Virus record (IMG/VR): IMGVR_UViG_3300046096_000124
Coordinates: 1 to 35,463 of that record
DNA from: a virus
DNA: 35,463 bases
Direction: 5' to 3' (one strand)
Part shown: positions 11,217 through 35,463 of the stretch, piece by piece
How the letters are laid out: every line of letters begins with the position of its first letter
Position numbering within the stretch: position 1 is the stretch's first letter
Translations under genes and position numbers: made by a program
Notes under the pieces: model-generated
Database searches by the model: none
Told to the model about the DNA's origin: nothing
What the model saw: only the letters and a program-made list of their open reading frames with translations

Positions 11217-13289
11217 TTATAAATTAAAACCTTGTAATCTAACAATGCCATCTGCTGTTTTAAATAGCATGTCACCTTTGCCAAGCAATGATTCTGCACC
11301 ATCTTGATCAATGATCACATTTGAATCAATCTTTGATGATGTTCTAAATGCAATTCTTGTTGGAAAGTTTGCCTTGATGTCACCATCAATAATATTCACT
11401 GATGGCCTTTGTGTTGTCACAATCAAATGAATTCCTGCTGCTCTGGCTTTTTGTGCAAGCAATAGAATATCAGTTTTGATGTTTATTTCTTCTTTGATGT
11501 CACTTTCTAATTCTTCAAGTGTTTCCATTGCAAAATCTTTATTTGGATTGATCTTTTTCGCAAGCTGCATTCTGATGCTATTTCTCTTTTTAACTTCTGC
11601 TGAAATAGTCTTTTGCATTGTCACAAGATCACCAAATTCATCAATCACAAGAAATATATATGGCATGTCTTTCATGTCTGCAATGTTTCTAACTTTTGCT
11701 TTTTGCATGTCTGTGTATCTGCTGTTCATAACTTCAACAAGATAATGCACTGATTCTGCAATTGCTAATGTGTCACTTTCATAAACTGTTGCAATATCTG
11801 AAAATTCTGCAAGTTCAACCATTTTTGGATCAAATAACCATAATTGAGAATTGCCAACATTTTTTAATTGCTTGATAATTGATGAAAGAAAAACTGACTT
11901 TCCAGCACCTGTTGCACCTGCTACAAGCAAATGTGGTGCTTGTCTGATGTCAAAATGCTCATCTTTACCATAAACATCAACACCCATTGCAACATTGAAT
12001 CCATCTGATTTTGGTGTGTGTGTTGGAAATGTGCGATCTGCTTTTGGCACTTCAAAACCAACCAATGATGAATTTTGAATTGGTGCCAATACTCTGATGC
12101 CTGAAACTCCCATCACCTGCTCAACATCTTTTGTAAATGATCCAATCTTTGACATTTTAATTCCAACTGATGGATCAAATCTGTATAAATCAACAGAATT
12201 GCCATTGATCACTGAATCAAATTCAAGACCAAATCCATGTTCTGCCATTTTCATTTTTATTTTTTCTTGTGGTGTCATATTTGTATAATCTAATGTTTTA
12301 CCTGAAACAAACTTTGTTGAAATAGTATCTAAATACTTTTTCATTGAGCTTGTTTTTTGGATTTTCTTTTTTAAGAAATCTGTTATATTATCAACTTTTG
12401 CTAATTTGAATGCTTTGGCTTTTGCCTCATCATCATCCAATCTATGAATGTATGCAAGAATGCTCACATCTTTATCAAACATTGCATTGAAATTTGGCAC
12501 ATACACTTGATGGCCAAGCAATGCATTTGTGACATCATCATACATTCTATAAAACAATTCAAATATTTCTGGTGTGTCTTTATAAACAATTGTATATTCT
12601 TTCACCTGATCTGAATTGTCTTTGTTTTTAGAATATTTGCATTCACGAAATGTCATGTCATGCGGTGCTTCACCTGTTTCTGCATATACCAAAAAATACA
12701 TGAATGCTGCTTGTAATAATTTTGCTGCATCAATAGTTTCATCTGATGAAAATTTACCTGTTGTTTTATGATCATCAATTCTGATTCTGTTTTTTACATC
12801 TTTATAAACAAAGTCTGGCACACCTTTCAATGCAATTGGCAAATCTCTGCCATCAACTTGCACTTTGTGTTTTAATACTTTTTCAACAAACAATATTTCT
12901 TTAACATTTTTCATTGGAAATGCTTTGATATATTCAAAGAATGAGAATGCAAATTTTTCATTTAATTTTTGTCTATTCTCAATGCTTGATGTATAACCAA
13001 TAAATCCATCTGAATAATTTTTTAAATATGTTTCGCCTGATTCAAGTGCTTTTTTTGTTGCTTCTGCATCTGATCCGCCTGCAATCTTTTCATTCAAAAA
13101 TGCTTCAACTGATTTGTGAATGGATTTGCCAAGCACTGCTGAAACTGATGTTGTCGTGTCAATCACATCACCATTTATATTATTGACCTTAAACATGAAT
13201 GGATTGTTTGCAAACTTTGTAAATGAGCTGTATGAATAATGCTCTACTGGAAAAACTTTGTCACTATTCAATATTGATCGCTGGACCAT
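11217..13289 (-). CDS. Fusion of RecB/Cas4-like PD-(D/E)XK nuclease and FtsK/SpoIIIE DNA translocase
   Basis: With ATG 13289 (13295 also possible) the protein has 690 residues and overlaps the recT end. The N-terminal nuclease has 'HYSYSSFTKFANNPF' (about 17-31), 'GKSIHKSVEAF' (54-64), 'KGVPDFVY' (Asp159) and 'RIDDHKTTG' (Asp-x-Lys near 172-175), then a Gln ('LLQAAFMYFL'). This is a complete RecB-family motif set. Residues about 340-690 match FtsK: a beta-domain ('DPSVGIKMSKI', 'VGFEVPKADR'), Walker A 'HLLVAGATGAGKSVF', 'DPKMVELAEFSDIATVY', Walker B 'FLVIDEFGDL', 'LAQKARAAGIHLIVTTQRPS' and 'GAESLLGKGDMLF'. An extra charged insert of about 40 residues follows Walker B, and the KOPS-reading gamma domain is absent. 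Beside recT it would take the place of the partner exonuclease, with a built-in dsDNA motor. The fusion lies in one uninterrupted frame. Confidence 0.88.
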   Translation of the reverse strand: MVQRSILNSDKVFPVEHYSYSSFTKFANNPFMFKVNNINGDVIDTTTSVSAVLGKSIHKSVEAFLNEKIAGGSDAEATKKALESGETYLKNYSDGFIGYTSSIENRQKLNEKFAFSFFEYIKAFPMKNVKEILFVEKVLKHKVQVDGRDLPIALKGVPDFVYKDVKNRIRIDDHKTTGKFSSDETIDAAKLLQAAFMYFLVYAETGEAPHDMTFRECKYSKNKDNSDQVKEYTIVYKDTPEIFELFYRMYDDVTNALLGHQVYVPNFNAMFDKDVSILAYIHRLDDDEAKAKAFKLAKVDNITDFLKKKIQKTSSMKKYLDTISTKFVSGKTLDYTNMTPQEKIKMKMAEHGFGLEFDSVINGNSVDLYRFDPSVGIKMSKIGSFTKDVEQVMGVSGIRVLAPIQNSSLVGFEVPKADRTFPTHTPKSDGFNVAMGVDVYGKDEHFDIRQAPHLLVAGATGAGKSVFLSSIIKQLKNVGNSQLWLFDPKMVELAEFSDIATVYESDTLAIAESVHYLVEVMNSRYTDMQKAKVRNIADMKDMPYIFLVIDEFGDLVTMQKTISAEVKKRNSIRMQLAKKINPNKDFAMETLEELESDIKEEINIKTDILLLAQKARAAGIHLIVTTQRPSVNIIDGDIKANFPTRIAFRTSSKIDSNVIIDQDGAESLLGKGDMLFKTADGIVRLQGFNL

Positions 13290-14163
13290 CGGCATCTGCT
13301 TGCTGATCCTGATTTTCTTCTTGATTATCTTTGTTGCCATGTATTTGTTTAAATTTGCCCATTTGCAAGGCATTATTTTCTGCTAATTTTTTAACTTCTG
13401 CAATTCTTGAATCCTGATTATCAATGTCAATCGCTTTGTTGATTGTTTCATTTTTTGGAAGAAGTTTTGCATGTTGTTTCAATACTGTTTTTTTCCACAT
13501 CCAGTATTCACCATCATTTTCTGGATTCCAAGGTGAATATTTACCTGTTGGATCATATGATTTGGAATACTTTGCTGCATGTGCAACAATATCTTTTCCA
13601 TTCATATATTTGATATTTTCCTCACCATTGAATTTAATCATCACATATGCGCCAATCGCTTCACCTCTTTCCTCTTTTGATAATCTAAAATCAACTGTGT
13701 GTTTAAATTCACCATTGATATATTCAACTTTGTCTTTTTCTCGCACAACTTCTGCCACAATTTTTTCAACACCTGCTTTATAGAAAAGTGTGACTAATCC
13801 CTGATAACCAACTTGCAATTGTGCTTCTGTTTGTTTGATCCATGTTTCTTTACCATCTGCACCAATAACTTTTTTCTTGTTATCATATGGCAACACATAT
13901 GCTTCACCTGAAATAAGTGATGGCATGAATCCAAGCTGTGCCATTTGCATATATGAATTGATAAGTGATGATTGTGAGCATGTAATCAACTTTGGATTTC
14001 GCTGACAATCTGCCACAATTGAGCTGATGAATTTCATGGCTGTTTTTTCATCACCCAAGAAATTCATGATTTGTTTTTTATAGACTGTGTTTAAATCTAC
14101 ACCAAACTTTTGTAAAGGCGATAATGCCTTTGTTGTATTCTGATCGTTTTTTATATCTGACAT
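13264..14163 (-). CDS. recT: RecT family single-strand annealing protein
   Basis: The 299-residue protein shows the RecT core: 'IMNFLGDEKTAMKFISSIVADCQRNPKL' (about 32-59), 'SLINSYMQMAQLGFMP', 'GEAYVLPYDNKK', 'EAQLQVGYQGLVTLFYKAG', 'EVVREKD' and 'YSPWNPENDGEYWMWKKTVLKQHAKLLPK'. RecT proteins coat resected single strands and anneal homologues for phage recombination and repair. The Gln/Asp-rich tail is variable. Its 3' end overlaps the nuclease-FtsK gene, its presumed resection partner. An inverted repeat (14190-14216) and TATAAA-like boxes lie upstream. Confidence 0.92.
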   Translation of the reverse strand: MSDIKNDQNTTKALSPLQKFGVDLNTVYKKQIMNFLGDEKTAMKFISSIVADCQRNPKLITCSQSSLINSYMQMAQLGFMPSLISGEAYVLPYDNKKKVIGADGKETWIKQTEAQLQVGYQGLVTLFYKAGVEKIVAEVVREKDKVEYINGEFKHTVDFRLSKEERGEAIGAYVMIKFNGEENIKYMNGKDIVAHAAKYSKSYDPTGKYSPWNPENDGEYWMWKKTVLKQHAKLLPKNETINKAIDIDNQDSRIAEVKKLAENNALQMGKFKQIHGNKDNQEENQDQQADADGPAINIE

Positions 14164-14189
14164 ATTTATAATTTAATTTGATAATAATT

Positions 14190-14216
14190 TATAAAGATTC
14201 TGTCACCATCTTTATA
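14190..14216. promoter_or_regulatory. Operator-like inverted repeat upstream of recT
   Basis: TATAAAGAT, 9 nt spacer, ATCTTTATA: perfect 9-bp arms 27-53 nt before the recT ATG, within a cluster of TATAAT-like boxes. The form suits a dimeric regulator binding over a promoter. A DnaA-box-like TGTGTATAA lies at 14269-14277, just past the end of the same gap. Confidence 0.5.
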
Positions 14217-14290
14217 TAATCATTATATAATTATTATATAAAAAAAGCAACTGATTTTCACCAGTCACTGTGTATAACTTTTGGATATTG

Positions 14291-14662
14291 TTATATATGC
14301 TTTTTTAAGAAATTTATTGCATCATCACACCCATAACATATTGCACATTTGGCACCAACTGATTGTAAATTTTCAATCCATATCAATTGATCATCTGAAA
14401 CATTTGATGGTGATTTTCCTTTTGCATTTTTTCTTCTTTTTAATTCTACAAACACAATATTTGTTTTTGTCACAATAATATAATCTGGCACACCTTTTCT
14501 TTTTCCCATTGCCTGCATTTTATTATAATAACCTGGATTTCTGATTGATGATTCATTTGGTATATGTGAAAAATTTAAAATCTTTTTTGACATATAAAGT
14601 GCATTTAAATATTGTGTAAATGCTTTTGCTTCATCATCTTCTTTTGGTGGTAGTATTTGCAT
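14291..14662 (-). CDS. VRR-NUC domain nuclease
   Basis: The 123-residue single-domain protein shows the VRR-NUC core: 'RKGVPDYIIV' (catalytic Asp), 'IVFVELKRRKN' (Glu-x-Lys), 'VSDDQLIWIENLQSVGAKCAICYGCDDAINFL'. These small PD-(D/E)XK proteins are common in phage replication regions and are thought to be structure-specific nucleases such as junction resolvases. It starts 3 nt after the SSB-like stop. A good match in length (most are 90-130 residues). Confidence 0.88.
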   Translation of the reverse strand: MQILPPKEDDEAKAFTQYLNALYMSKKILNFSHIPNESSIRNPGYYNKMQAMGKRKGVPDYIIVTKTNIVFVELKRRKNAKGKSPSNVSDDQLIWIENLQSVGAKCAICYGCDDAINFLKKHI

Positions 14663-14665
14663 ATT

Positions 14666-15028
14666 TTAAAATGGTATATCATCTGCATTTACATCACCAT
14701 AATCCATAACTGTTTCAACATTTGAATAATCAACTTCATCATCTGCCATTCTTTGATCAAAATCTTTGTCAAATTGTTTATCTTTTTTTTCTGATGTCTT
14801 GTAATCACTTGATGGCTTCCAATCATCAACATAACAATTTGCACCAAACTTTGCTTTGTCACTTTTACTGATAATTAAATTGATCCACTCACCTTTTTCA
14901 TTTTGCAACCATTCAATCAATTCTTTTCTATTGACTGATAATTTTGCAAGCATCCACTGTTCAACTTTTTCTGGTGATCTTTTGGCAATTATTCCTTTTG
15001 GATAAATGTATTGTTTTTTTTCTGACAT
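14666..15028 (-). CDS. Single-stranded DNA-binding-like protein with acidic DDIPF tail
   Basis: A 120-residue protein. The N-terminal 70-80 residues ('YIYPKGIIAKRSP', 'LSVNRKELIEWLQNEKGEW', 'KAKFGANCYVDDWKP') suit a small beta-rich fold. The tail is acidic and ends exactly in DDIPF, the protein-interaction tip of bacterial SSBs. It probably binds ssDNA and recruits partners such as RecT or host replication proteins. It lies in the recombination operon between a small gene and the VRR-NUC gene. The OB fold is not proven from motifs alone. Confidence 0.7.
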   Translation of the reverse strand: MSEKKQYIYPKGIIAKRSPEKVEQWMLAKLSVNRKELIEWLQNEKGEWINLIISKSDKAKFGANCYVDDWKPSSDYKTSEKKDKQFDKDFDQRMADDEVDYSNVETVMDYGDVNADDIPF

Positions 15029-15029
15029 A

Positions 15030-15311
15030 TTATTTTTTGTCTATTAAATTTTTTGCCACTTCGTGCATATCTTTTTTTGTAAATACAAGAATTGTTTGCC
15101 TAATACTTTCACCTGCTTCATGTGCCAACATTTCCATCTGCTCTTTTGAAATGAAATCTTTGTGTGCCTTGAATGTATGTGAAAACAACACTGTTGAAAA
15201 TACTAATGCCGCATCAAACAAATCACCATCTGTGTATTCTCTAAAAATTCCTGCATCTTCCAGCATAATTGTTGCTGTATCACTTAATTTTTTTTGTATA
15301 TTTTCTAACAT
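15030..15311 (-). CDS. Hypothetical helical protein
   Basis: From ATG 15311 the product has 93 residues, beginning MLENIQKKLSD. Predicted helical, with an acidic N-terminal half and no Cys. The stop is followed by the SSB-like ATG with 1 nt between. TATATAAT lies directly before the ATG and overlaps the stop of the HU-like gene. No recognised domain. Confidence 0.5.
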   Translation of the reverse strand: MLENIQKKLSDTATIMLEDAGIFREYTDGDLFDAALVFSTVLFSHTFKAHKDFISKEQMEMLAHEAGESIRQTILVFTKKDMHEVAKNLIDKK

Positions 15312-15315
15312 ATAA

Positions 15316-15528
15316 TTATATAAATTTATCAAGTCCGCGCACAAACATTTTTATGTATTCAGATGATTTGAATGCGATGATATTAACTTTTTGTTTTTTA
15401 AATGGCTCAACTTTTGTTTTGATCTTCAAAATGCCAATATCTTTTATAATGGCACGACCTCTCAAAGCAAGTTCCTGATAGATCTTTTCTTTTTGTTCTT
15501 CTGTTAATTCAATACTAATTTTTCGCAT
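15316..15528 (-). CDS. Minimal HU/IHF-like DNA-binding protein (tentative)
   Basis: A 70-residue basic protein. The segment 'GRAIIKDIGILKIKTKVEPF', followed by 'VNIIAFKSSEYIKMFVRG', resembles the second half of HU/IHF (beta-arm and the FKxS..K..v ending), preceded by one helix ('TEEQKEKIYQEL'). It is shorter than HU (about 90 residues). It might compact or bend DNA near the origin. It overlaps the upstream gene by 14 nt. Resemblance is weak and needs a structural check. Confidence 0.45.
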   Translation of the reverse strand: MRKISIELTEEQKEKIYQELALRGRAIIKDIGILKIKTKVEPFKKQKVNIIAFKSSEYIKMFVRGLDKFI

Positions 15529-16114
15529 AATCTTTTTTTACTTTTTCAAATGTTTTATATTGACCATCTAAATCAACAATTTCATTATTGCAATAATACT
15601 TATTTTTTAATTTCTTTACAACATACATTTTGACATCTTTCATTGAGCTGATTATAAGCACACCATCTTCAACTTCTTTGAAATCCATCATCATTGCTAA
15701 CTGTCCAAGATATTTTATAAATTGTGTTTCAAAATGATTTTCATCAAAAATATTTCTGATGCACACTGGCAACCCTGGCACAAATTCATAATTATTATTT
15801 TCAATAGTAATTCCATCAATGTGACCTGTTATTTCAACATTATTTCTGATGAATTTAAATGTTCCATCCACAACACGATCAAATTTTTTATCTACTATTT
15901 CAATATTTTTTAAAATATCTAATGTTGCCAAATCACAACCTTTTGCCAAACCTCTTTTCAATATTTTTTGATAAAAGTCTGCCTTTGAAACTTGATCATC
16001 TGCAAATTCCAACAAAAGATCATGTTCTGACTTTCCAAAATCATATATTGTAAAACCAGTTTTCTTTTTGTTTTTCCTTGTAAATTCACAAGCATCAAAA
16101 TTTATGATTTGCAT
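15515..16114 (-). CDS. Cas4/RecB-like protein with an altered catalytic motif
   Basis: The ATG at 16114 gives 199 residues; an upstream TTG extension (MVYNIF) is promoter sequence. The segment 'VEITGHIDGITIENNNYEFVPG' (about 93-114) has the nuclease-like Asp100 and Glu110, but the Lys expected two residues later is Val112. It continues with 'FETQFIKYLGQLAMMMDF', like the Q-motif helix of Cas4/RecB folds. It may be an inactivated nuclease acting as a structural subunit, or another fold altogether. It is the first gene after promoter copy 2, so probably strongly expressed. Confidence 0.5.
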   Translation of the reverse strand: MQIINFDACEFTRKNKKKTGFTIYDFGKSEHDLLLEFADDQVSKADFYQKILKRGLAKGCDLATLDILKNIEIVDKKFDRVVDGTFKFIRNNVEITGHIDGITIENNNYEFVPGLPVCIRNIFDENHFETQFIKYLGQLAMMMDFKEVEDGVLIISSMKDVKMYVVKKLKNKYYCNNEIVDLDGQYKTFEKVKKDYAKN

Positions 16115-16148
16115 AAATATATTATATACCAATATATACTTTTTGCAA
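16113..16148 (-). promoter_or_regulatory. Promoter repeat, copy 2 (leaderless, exact duplicate of 10354-10389)
   Basis: The minus strand has TTGCAA, 16-bp spacer, TGGTATATAAT, and the ATG of the Cas4-like gene 6 nt after the hexamer. Identical over 36 bases to 10354-10389. A perfect DnaA box lies just upstream. Confidence 0.78.
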
Positions 16149-16153
16149 CTTGT

Positions 16154-16162
16154 TTATCCACA
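16154..16162 (+). promoter_or_regulatory. DnaA box (TTATCCACA)
   Basis: Exact consensus bacterial DnaA box, between the end of the initiator gene and promoter copy 2, 6 bp from the -35. Related 9-mers TTATACACA occur at 17618, 18097 and 18778 and, inverted, at 10409 and 14269. It could mark an origin or allow host DnaA to control the promoter. Confidence 0.5.
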
Positions 16163-16164
16163 CA

Positions 16165-16899
16165 TTATTTATTGGCTTCTGCTTTTTTTTGCATTGCTTT
16201 CACAATGTCTGATGAATCTGCTGTTTGTAAAACAACTTTTCCTTTCATGTCTGCATCTTTTTTAAACTTATCTGGAAACAATCCTTGATAATCATTTTTA
16301 ATTGAATGTTGAATGATCTTCACATGCTCTTGCTTGTATTCTTCAAGTTCTTTCAATTGCATTTTGATTGCTTTCTCACTCAATGGCTTTTTCTTTTCAA
16401 CACGTCTAAATTCTACCCACTCATTCCAAACATCTTTATTCACCCATGCTGGCAATTCCAATTGCACTTCAACAACAATTTTCTTTTCTCTTTTTGGCTT
16501 TGCTGGTGTATCTTCTTCATCTTCTATTATTATTTTTTTATCTTTGAAAATATCATTGTAAATATTTCTAATATTTTCTGGCAATGCTGCAACAATCTTT
16601 TCAAGTCCTGTAATCATTGATGGATTGAATGATTGATTTTTTCTGTGGTTCACAAGAATGATCCAATCATCAATTCTTTTAATTTTGTGATCTTTTTCAA
16701 ACTTTTGCAAAACCACTTCAACAACATCTGGATCATAACCAGTGCCAAAACCAATTCTTTTTGCTGTGATTTCATAAACACCTGCAAGATTGCAAAGTGG
16801 ATTTGTTAAAAGAAATAGAAAAATAAGTTTATGATCTGGTGAAATTCTTTCAATGTAATTATCTGACCAAAATGTGTCGTTTATATATTTTTTTGCCAT
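16165..16899 (-). CDS. Replication initiation / replisome organiser protein (DnaD-like N-terminus)
   Basis: A 244-residue protein. The start 'KKYINDTFWSDNYIERISPDHKLIFLFLL' and 'NPLCNLAGVYEITAKRIGFGTGYD' (about 35-58), then 'KDHKIKRIDDWIILVNHRKNQSFNP', are typical of winged-helix phage replisome organisers. These bind the origin and recruit the helicase loader. The C-terminal half has a long charged linker and 'WNEWVEFRRVEKKKPLSEKAIKMQLKELE', often seen in DnaD/initiator tails. The helicase-loader gene ends 4 nt before its start. Typical length is 200-300 residues. Confidence 0.82.
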   Translation of the reverse strand: MAKKYINDTFWSDNYIERISPDHKLIFLFLLTNPLCNLAGVYEITAKRIGFGTGYDPDVVEVVLQKFEKDHKIKRIDDWIILVNHRKNQSFNPSMITGLEKIVAALPENIRNIYNDIFKDKKIIIEDEEDTPAKPKREKKIVVEVQLELPAWVNKDVWNEWVEFRRVEKKKPLSEKAIKMQLKELEEYKQEHVKIIQHSIKNDYQGLFPDKFKKDADMKGKVVLQTADSSDIVKAMQKKAEANK

Positions 16900-16903
16900 A
16901 CAT

Positions 16904-17440
16904 TTAATTTATTCTTTTATTATCTCCGACCACTTCATAAAATTCACACATCTCTGATAATCTGCTGGTGATTCTTTCACCATATCTTGTGTTTAATTCA
17001 ATCAAGTTTAAATTTGTTGAAATAAACAATGGCTTTCCATTTTCATATGCATCATTGATGATCATGAATAAAAGCACATTTGAATTTTCTGTTTCTTTTT
17101 CTGCACCAAGATCATCAATAAAAATAAAATTTTTATCTTTTAATCTGGCAACTACATTTGGAAATGATCTTGAATCATTATAATAAAGTGACATTTCAAA
17201 AAGTATTTCTTGCCATGTTTGAATGTTTGAAAAATACCCCCTCATTCCACCTGACAAATATTTTCTTATGGCATGCATTGCGTGTGTTTTACCTCTGCCT
17301 GTTAATCCATAAAAAACTATTCCCTTTTTATAACCATATTCTTTTGTGCCATCTTCTTTTGTTTTTTCAAACAAATTTTGTTTTATTAAATTTTGTATTT
17401 TGACATCTAACTGTGAGATGTCTGCATTTGTGTATTTCAT
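16904..17440 (-). CDS. DnaC/DnaI-like helicase loader ATPase
   Basis: The ATG at 17440 gives 178 residues; a TTG at 17500 would add 20 residues but reads through the leader hairpin. Walker A 'FYGLTGRGKTHAMHAI' (43-58), Walker B 'NFIFIDDLGAE' (104-114), sensor 1 'PLFISTNLNL' (137-146), and an arginine-finger-like 'RYGERITSRL' (152-161) identify an AAA+ loader. It would load host DnaB at the phage origin. It is upstream of the initiator in the same transcript. The C-terminus is compact, as in phage loaders. Confidence 0.88.
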   Translation of the reverse strand: MKYTNADISQLDVKIQNLIKQNLFEKTKEDGTKEYGYKKGIVFYGLTGRGKTHAMHAIRKYLSGGMRGYFSNIQTWQEILFEMSLYYNDSRSFPNVVARLKDKNFIFIDDLGAEKETENSNVLLFMIINDAYENGKPLFISTNLNLIELNTRYGERITSRLSEMCEFYEVVGDNKRIN

Positions 17441-17491
17441 GTGATTTGTCGTTTTATTTTTAATCACCGAATTGTGTTTTTCGTTTTTTCC

Positions 17492-17552
17492 TATATCCAA
17501 GTGTTGATTATTTGAAAATGGTGATAAACAAATTTTTCAACAACTGGATATA
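17492..17552 (-). promoter_or_regulatory. Leader hairpin before the helicase-loader gene
   Basis: TATATCCAAGTGTTGA (17492-17507) is the near-perfect inverted partner of TCAACAACTGGATATA (17537-17552), 14 of 16 positions. An inner TTGAAAA/TTTTCAA pair adds to the stem. GAAAATGGTG (17514-17523) can instead pair with CACCATTTC (17557-17565), so two exclusive folds exist in the 137-nt leader. Confidence 0.5.
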
Positions 17553-34564: not shown

Positions 34565-35463
34565 CTATGATGCATTTGTTTTAAGTCTTGCAAGTGCTTG
34601 CTCATTCGCAACCACATAACCAGTTCTTTTAACAATTCTCACACCTACCATATCCTGCTCTGCAAGATTGATCTGTGTTGATCCATCTGCATCAGTGATT
34701 GTTGCCTCTGAAAGCATTTTCACTTTTATCTCACCTTTATCTCCATAAATAGCACCAAGTTTCATATCTCCGAAAAGCACGAAATGCTTGTTTGCTTGCT
34801 GTGGATTTGTAAGATCAGTGTTTGGCATTGCTTCAACTTCAACAACTGGCTTGCCCCAAAGTGTTGGAAGACTTCCTGATGTCACTATATCTCTAAAGAT
34901 ATATTGATCATTTGCATCTTTCATCAATCTACAAAGATCAAGTATTGCCGAGCTCATGTAATATTTTCCACGAGTTCTTGCTGCCTTTTTAACTTTGCCT
35001 TGTAATTTTAACAAGTCATCTGCTGTCATTGCTGCAAAAGTAGATCCTGCTGCAATTGCAAGTGCTGGTATAGATGATGTTCTTAAAAGACCAGTCCAAA
35101 CTGTTCCATCTCCATCAAAGTATTGTAGATCTTCTTCAACTGCAACTGCTTCAACAAATAGCTCTGCTACAAGTTTAACAATGTCAATTTGTGAATCTTC
35201 AATCAACTCTTCTGTGATTGGCACAATGGCTGTTAATTTCTTCAAGATTTGAGTCACAACACCAAATTGTGCTTTTGTGCCTCCTTTCTTTCCACCCTCT
35301 AATGTCCAGAAAACTGAAACAGATGATGCAAGTTTTGGAATTATACGAGTATCACCTGATCCACCAAATGGCAAATATCTCATTTCTTGTCTTGCAACAC
35401 CATAACCCTCTTTTTCAATTCTCAAAACTTCTGTTGAAAGTTCTGTTGGCACTGTATAAGCAC
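34565..35463 (-). CDS. Major capsid protein (HK97 fold), C-terminal part (open at window end)
   Basis: The frame is open to the window end and encodes about 299 residues. 'AYTVPTELSTEVLRIEKEGYGVARQEM' in two pieces, 'LPFGGSGDTRIIPKLASS' and 'FWTLEGGKKGGTKAQFGVV' represent the N-arm/E-loop region; 'LTAIVPITEELIEDSQIDIVKLV', 'YFDGDGTVWTGLL', 'YMSSAILDLCRLMKDANDQYIF', 'LPTLWGKPVVEVEAMP' and 'HFVLFGDMKLGAIYGDKGEIKVKM' follow the HK97 P- and A-domains. It builds the icosahedral head. The N-terminal delta segment is presumably the fragment at 1-122; the join is incomplete. A GTG at 35452 is internal, not the true start. Confidence 0.88.
   Translation of the reverse strand, partial: AYTVPTELSTEVLRIEKEGYGVARQEMRYLPFGGSGDTRIIPKLASSVSVFWTLEGGKKGGTKAQFGVVTQILKKLTAIVPITEELIEDSQIDIVKLVAELFVEAVAVEEDLQYFDGDGTVWTGLLRTSSIPALAIAAGSTFAAMTADDLLKLQGKVKKAARTRGKYYMSSAILDLCRLMKDANDQYIFRDIVTSGSLPTLWGKPVVEVEAMPNTDLTNPQQANKHFVLFGDMKLGAIYGDKGEIKVKMLSEATITDADGSTQINLAEQDMVGVRIVKRTGYVVANEQALARLKTNAS

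Follow-up and report, generated by a model that had tools for sequence, protein, structure and literature searches.

Phage recombination pairs are usually viewed as a motorless nuclease combined with an annealase, and resection in cells as a process driven by separate helicases. In the RecE/RecT, lambda Exo/Redbeta and YqaJ/RecT systems, a RecT/Bet annealase gene stands beside the gene of a PD-(D/E)XK nuclease, with RecE and lambda Exo forming oligomeric rings that lack a motor. AdnAB, AddAB and RecBCD combine a motor with a RecB-family nuclease for end resection, their motors being unwinding SF1 helicases. In HerA-NurA, which consists of two proteins, a hexameric pump of the FtsK/HerA superfamily feeds a nuclease that sits at one opening of the ring; the HerA motor carries a HAS barrel, and the gene partner of this system is Mre11-Rad50. 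HerA-NurA of T. kodakarensis was reported to split the duplex at the nuclease, cutting both strands (PMC12977600). Single polypeptides with the nuclease in front of a HerA/FtsK motor occur in DndH/SspH and other HerA/FtsK-capture systems, where DndH, a protein of about 1700 amino acids with helicase, beta-sandwich, recognition and inactive methylase domains, serves host defence together with DndF and DndG (PMC10853773). A survey of annealing proteins in Firmicutes lists YqaJ, DUF3799 and DUF1351 as direct neighbours and never mentions FtsK in its text (PMC8093625).

Here, we analyzed a phage locus at which a nuclease and an FtsK-type motor are encoded as one chain next to recT. The window, meaning the whole stretch of DNA analysed, is a complete IMG/VR record of one 35,463-base contig and otherwise represents an ordinary tailed phage with terminase, portal, capsid protease, major head protein, tape measure and endolysin. 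With the capsid protease at one contig end and the major head protein cut off by the opposite end (1-965, 34565-35463), the record probably represents a nearly complete genome in circularly permuted form.

The preliminary description had reported an uninterrupted frame of 690 codons; its coordinates were correct, with the gene on the minus strand and stops throughout the same interval of the plus strand (Table 1). The frame is open over 11217-13373 and yields 718 amino acids if counted from the first ATG (13373). Met29 (13289) is the likelier start, since the 718-aa form reaches deeper into recT, the upstream gene, which overlaps the fusion start with its 3' end. Based on Pfam, the domain order is PDDEXK_1, FtsK_alpha and FtsK_SpoIIIE, each above the curated cut-off (46-243, 1.7e-10; 368-443, 5.3e-12; 457-659, 5.5e-28; numbering of the 718-aa form). 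The earlier assignment of a PD-(D/E)XK nuclease followed by an FtsK alpha/beta motor and adjoining RecT therefore holds, and all motifs quoted for it are present.

Table 1. Features of the fusion locus in the 35,463-base window.
Feature	Position	Strand	Support or remark
Nuclease-motor fusion gene	11217..13289	minus	690 codons, one open frame; same architecture in 43 other contigs
RecB/RecE-type PD-(D/E)XK nuclease, N-terminal, about residues 11-260	12510..13259	minus	PF12705 1.7e-10
Subtype-1 helical linker, residues 265-352, conserved VDNITDFLKKKIQ	12234..12497	minus	conserved in 27 phages
FtsK alpha domain, residues 340-415	12045..12272	minus	PF17854 5.3e-12
FtsK beta motor, residues 429-690	11220..12005	minus	PF01580 5.5e-28
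Charged insert after Walker B, residues 557-606	11472..11621	minus	variable among relatives
RecT single-strand annealing protein, 299 aa	13264..14163	minus	PF03837 1e-33; phrog_148 4.6e-51
RecT tail motif LQMGKF, residues 266-271, proposed docking peptide	13351..13368	minus	L-x-M-G-x-L/F pattern
Upstream replication/recombination genes	14291..17500	minus	same orientation as fusion
VRR-NUC	14291-14662	minus	
ORF with SSB-like tip	14666-15028	minus	
Replisome organiser	16165-16899	minus	
DnaC-like loader	16904-17500	minus	

The search for the same domain order in viral databases and for its linkage to recT, proposed in the preliminary description, revealed a family. The fusion was found in 43 viral contigs beyond the window, and the distinct contigs, including the window, fall into two subtypes: 28 belong to subtype 1 with a long linker and 16 to subtype 2, in which the linker is shorter and different. 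Subtype 2 forms one side of a fully supported branch in the fusion tree. Within subtype 1, to which the window belongs, identity is 42-59%. Scanning 2.9 million viral contigs with the nuclease half returned three relatives, all of them with the full fusion downstream of an annealing-protein gene, and further alignment searches were based on the linker (16 contigs), on RecT (31) and on subtype 2 (16). Both the nuclease half and the alignments were required, as scans with the whole window protein or with RecT by itself returned no relatives. Nuclease and motor share a single frame in every complete family member, several copies being truncated at contig ends, and an annealing-protein gene is linked to the fusion wherever the upstream region is present. 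The GC content of the members checked ranges from 33% to 61%, suggesting diverse hosts.

Outside these contigs, only parts of the architecture were detected. Among 50,697 GenBank phage records, tblastn with the full protein gave motor-only matches and none at 80% coverage, and the nuclease half gave zero matches; the corresponding subtype-2 search and a plasmid search likewise contained no record reaching 80% coverage. The sole match in a scan of genome collections was a Ruminococcus FtsK, and no cellular or named-host member was found there. Matches to FtsK from fecal phages were discarded as ordinary membrane FtsK, probably from bacterial fragments, and so was the FtsK of Bacillus phage BSP18, where the match extends past the motor but the nuclease domain is missing. 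No family in Pfam, PHROG, NCBIfam or PADLOC shows this nuclease-motor architecture beside RecT, and a search of openly licensed papers gave no description of a nuclease-FtsK fusion with RecT. Hence, we found a nuclease-motor fusion beside RecT described nowhere, while single chains and pairs of pump and nuclease are already known in other settings. One family member (L026; record G006) is prophage-like, with an integrase, an RtcB ligase and a second HerA/TraD-like ATPase (14106-15422 and 51908-52936); its flanks were inspected and are not diagnostic of the host.

Regarding the nuclease, the predicted catalytic residues are His58, Glu136, Asp159, Asp173, Lys175 and Gln193. The first five are invariant in 33/33 aligned fusions and Gln193 is kept in 32 of them, which answers the concern raised earlier that catalytic residues might prove non-functional in relatives. 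The nuclease domain was modelled mostly with pLDDT above 90 (82.5 with pTM 0.73 when modelled separately together with the linker). Two folds are tied as closest to this model, namely the nuclease domain of AdnA (Z 15.6 over 221 residues at 3.6 A) and RecE of E. coli (Z 15.5 over 204 residues at 3.6 A); lambda Exo is more distant (Z about 9). Fold and residues (His, Asp, Asp-x-Lys, Gln) together place the domain in the RecB/RecE branch of PD-(D/E)XK enzymes, and judging from its sequence, it is presumably active in DNA cutting. One relative (L033, 7272-9269) retains the catalytic residues but lacks some 36 residues where the nuclease domain ends. The linker following the nuclease was predicted with low confidence in the structure models; in subtype 1, it is a candidate docking site for the RecT tail.

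The motor contains Walker A (GATGAGKS), Walker B (IDEF) and the arginine finger Arg616. Lys464/Ser465 of Walker A, Asp550/Glu551 of Walker B and Arg616 are unchanged in 30/30 fusions, the other three of the 33 rows being truncated by their contigs. Alignment to the P. aeruginosa FtsK chain equates Arg616 with the arginine finger R620, Lys639 with the DNA contact K643 and Lys378 with the exit-ring contact K377 (roles as named in PMC7321959), and all three residues are invariant across 15 aligned fusion proteins. The full-length model matches FtsK 6t8o (Z 32.8, 308 residues, 2.6 A); the single-chain model reached pLDDT 77 and a pTM of 0.47, at which the relative orientation of the domains is not fixed. 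With alpha and beta domains, both Walker motifs and the arginine finger, the protein belongs to the FtsK/SpoIIIE motor family. It differs from the cell-division translocases of that family, as Pfam detected no N-terminal membrane domain in the protein and no PF09397 in the record.

As already recognized, the gamma domain, which reads the DNA sequence in FtsK, is missing: the protein stops at the last strand of the beta domain, and PF09397 is absent from the whole record. One relative (L031, 7145-7360; record G011:29015-29179) encodes a stand-alone gamma domain (PF09397, 1.1e-25) at a distance of about 4 kb downstream from its fusion. With its occurrence in 1/34 phages, a trans-acting gamma domain was rejected as a general component. 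The charged insert highlighted in the preliminary description exists in the window, but it varies among relatives and is nearly absent in two of them (L013, L020), so we dismissed it as a special defining element.

Compared with the systems introduced above, the locus combines features of several of them. It resembles RecE-type pairs in a nuclease fold close to RecE and, judging from the tail motifs, may also couple the annealase tail to the nuclease, but differs from the RecE and lambda Exo pairs by the ATP-driven double-stranded DNA motor carried on the nuclease. The suggested parallel to HerA-NurA stands as far as the way of working is concerned, with an FtsK/HerA-superfamily pump, predicted to be hexameric in the fusion, feeding a nuclease at one ring mouth. 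The fusion is not a member of that system: it is a single chain, its motor is FtsK-type with an FtsK alpha domain, its PDDEXK_1 nuclease is RecE/AdnA-like and unlike NurA, and its gene partner is RecT. With FtsK/SpoIIIE, it has the alpha and beta domains, Walker motifs, arginine finger and DNA-contact loops in common, whereas the membrane and gamma domains are missing and a nuclease takes the N-terminal position. DndH/SspH resembles it in the nuclease-first arrangement, but the fusion is a 690-aa phage protein linked to RecT, and the PADLOC SspH match covers the motor part only. Finally, AdnAB, AddAB and RecBCD, which include the nearest nuclease fold, differ in that the motor of the fusion is a double-stranded DNA pump.

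Next, we considered which gene occupies the position downstream of recT. In the RecT-only search, the fusion lies directly downstream in 29/31 contigs, and the remaining two (L053, L056) encode a YqaJ exonuclease in that place (1.8e-17, 3.6e-19) and no fusion anywhere in the whole record. Across 34 whole phage records, fusion and YqaJ are mutually exclusive: YqaJ occurs in exactly these two, and the 32 fusion phages are free of it, with no match to PF09588 in the window record. DUF3799 is absent from all 34, and PDDEXK_1 gives a single match in 30; of the other four records, the two with YqaJ lack it and two with the fusion score under the threshold. In a tree of the RecT core, from which the tails were excluded, the YqaJ-paired RecTs are nested among fusion-paired ones and the subtype-2 RecTs fall in two separate places, indicating that partners have been exchanged. 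Linked to a RecT/Bet gene and exchanged for a known exonuclease, the fusion gene thus takes the place of the nuclease in an exonuclease-annealase pair.

The tails of the annealing proteins follow the identity of this partner. In subtype 1, the disordered-looking tails contain L-x-M-G-x-L/F or a near form; the strict pattern matches 25/27 of these proteins (LKISDI and LKMSSL being the two deviating forms), 0/15 of subtype 2, 0/2 of the YqaJ-paired RecTs and 0/8 of an outgroup of RecTs from GenBank phages, seven of which lie beside YqaJ or another exonuclease. Conversely, D-x-x-G-x-A-(5)-H is found in 15/15 subtype-2 partners and in none of the other groups, and shuffled tails match the two patterns at 0.7% and 0.27%. 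The patterns were drawn from the data by inspection; the subtype-1 pattern, established with the first 16 phages, matched 9/11 later ones, and the first subtype-2 pattern matched 6/9 later contigs. The codons of the L-x-M-G-x-L/F motif vary between phages, which argues for selection at the protein level. Three subtype-1 annealing proteins are Bet-like rather than RecT-like (phrog_2449/252), yet retain L-x-M-G, and the phages encoding them do not form one clade in the fusion tree (three changes; a single clade was rejected). Some linkage between tail and partner is to be expected in subtype 1, where the tail adjoins or overlaps the fusion gene. In subtype 2, recT and the fusion may be separated by as much as 2.4 kb and the motif nevertheless fits the partner, which a tail simply hitch-hiking with its neighbouring gene would not explain. 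All four phylogenetically independent contrasts from the RecT tree point in the expected direction, a number too small for significance (p 0.125).

Taken from sequence comparison, these patterns suggest that the RecT tail may dock on the fusion. Precedent for coupling an annealase tail to an exonuclease comes from Redbeta, whose C-terminal domain binds lambda Exo, presumably for loading as the strand becomes exposed (PMC8303780), with contacts at this domain being required for duplex recombination (PMC5052646). The two YqaJ-paired RecTs (L053, 2018-2923; L056, 3998-4945) have a longer, probably helical tail with neither motif, in the style of the Redbeta C-terminal domain, whereas close relatives with the fusion as partner end in tails of the short-motif kind.

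Altogether, the fusion is likely an ATP-powered nuclease for processing DNA ends, acting as the exonuclease partner of RecT in place of RecE, YqaJ or lambda Exo. The idea of a self-powered resection machine feeding RecT thereby gains comparative support from the YqaJ swap, the annealing-gene linkage and the partner-matched tails. With somewhat less assurance, we favour the wider view of a phage exonuclease-annealase pair with an FtsK-type duplex pump on the exonuclease, in which the annealase would be loaded from a single-chain, hexameric pump-and-cut ring and exchangeable RecT/Bet tail motifs would specify the nuclease, providing a third route to recombination-ready ends. Six copies would form a ring through their FtsK alpha/beta domains on a free double-stranded end, and ATP hydrolysis would drive the duplex through it from the beta face, where it enters, to the alpha face, where it leaves. 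In FtsK, translocation runs from the beta ring towards the alpha ring, at which the DNA exits (PMC7321959), and this by analogy would put the N-terminal nuclease at the DNA exit; folds and direction are carried over here from solved relatives. There, the emerging DNA would encounter the six RecE-like nucleases, which the linker connects to the alpha ring, and one of its strands would presumably be degraded exclusively or at a higher rate than its complement. RecT, tethered by the short motif in its disordered tail, would then be loaded on the exposed strand for annealing.

The behaviour of T. kodakarensis HerA-NurA (PMC12977600) bears on this last step, since cutting of both strands as described there would by itself leave RecT no tail. 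By the same analogy, the phage ring could cut both strands as well unless RecT or a strand preference spares one. It is conceivable, if unlikely, that the fusion is a destroyer in the manner of HerA-NurA, which pumps duplex in and degrades both strands of the host chromosome for nucleotides or of competing phage DNA, its position next to recT reflecting an early operon only. Pairs of nuclease and HerA/FtsK motor are indeed common in anti-invader systems such as DndH (PMC10853773). For such a free-standing enzyme, however, neither the annealing-gene linkage in 43 contigs with two types of annealing protein nor the mutual exclusion with YqaJ and the partner-matched tails would be expected, and the PADLOC matches are restricted to the motor.

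Even less probable is a role after annealing instead of before it, with the pump travelling along replicated or annealed DNA and the nuclease cutting flaps, branches or concatemers. Such a processor of branches and junctions would likewise be linked to RecT and could dock on it, and the fold family includes the structure-specific enzymes Dna2 and MGME1. Against it, the fusion fills the slot of the end-resecting YqaJ in near relatives, RecE is among the two nearest folds, and the window already supplies a VRR-NUC nuclease from an upstream gene. We regard as very improbable the suggestion of a DNA-processing step before packaging, in which a second translocase-nuclease would ready or trim concatemers for the terminase. 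Packaging motors do resemble those of the FtsK superfamily, and the motor has a weak match to phrog_2666 (terminase), but the window encodes its own portal, capsid protease, small terminase and terminase-like large subunit, and the fusion gene sits with recT and the replication genes, apart from the packaging block. An identity as the terminase large subunit itself was rejected, given the separate terminase genes and a nuclease in N-terminal instead of C-terminal position. That the window is a metagenome contig is all that speaks for a misassembly joining two genes or for a decayed gene, a notion of next to no probability, refuted by the recurrence of this order, with active sites conserved, in 43 other contigs.

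If the fusion indeed serves RecT as a single-chain pump-nuclease, it would constitute a new solution for end processing. It would also offer a simple two-gene system for asking how a duplex translocase yields single strands, a question disputed for HerA-NurA, and how annealing proteins become matched to nucleases. Matched pairs of RecT and fusion could further serve recombineering in bacteria where lambda Red and RecET perform poorly.

Further observations concern neighbouring genes and other phages. In Omega-type mycobacteriophages (L009, 5923-8301), a stand-alone FtsK motor adjoins a Ku protein, so that a duplex pump is again paired with end-repair genes. In the window, the 120-aa ORF at 14666-15028 upstream of recT ends with NADDIPF, resembling the C-terminal tip of bacterial SSB, and gave no convincing Pfam or PHROG family; it is possibly a phage ssDNA-binding protein or a mimic of the SSB tip. 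A similar ORF, ending with NPEDIPF, adjoins YqaJ in L053. Lastly, a 205-aa ORF of the window (15515-16132, minus strand) without family matches shows, by eye, a PD-(D/E)XK-like fold minus the catalytic lysine (GHIDG...YEFVPG...Q).
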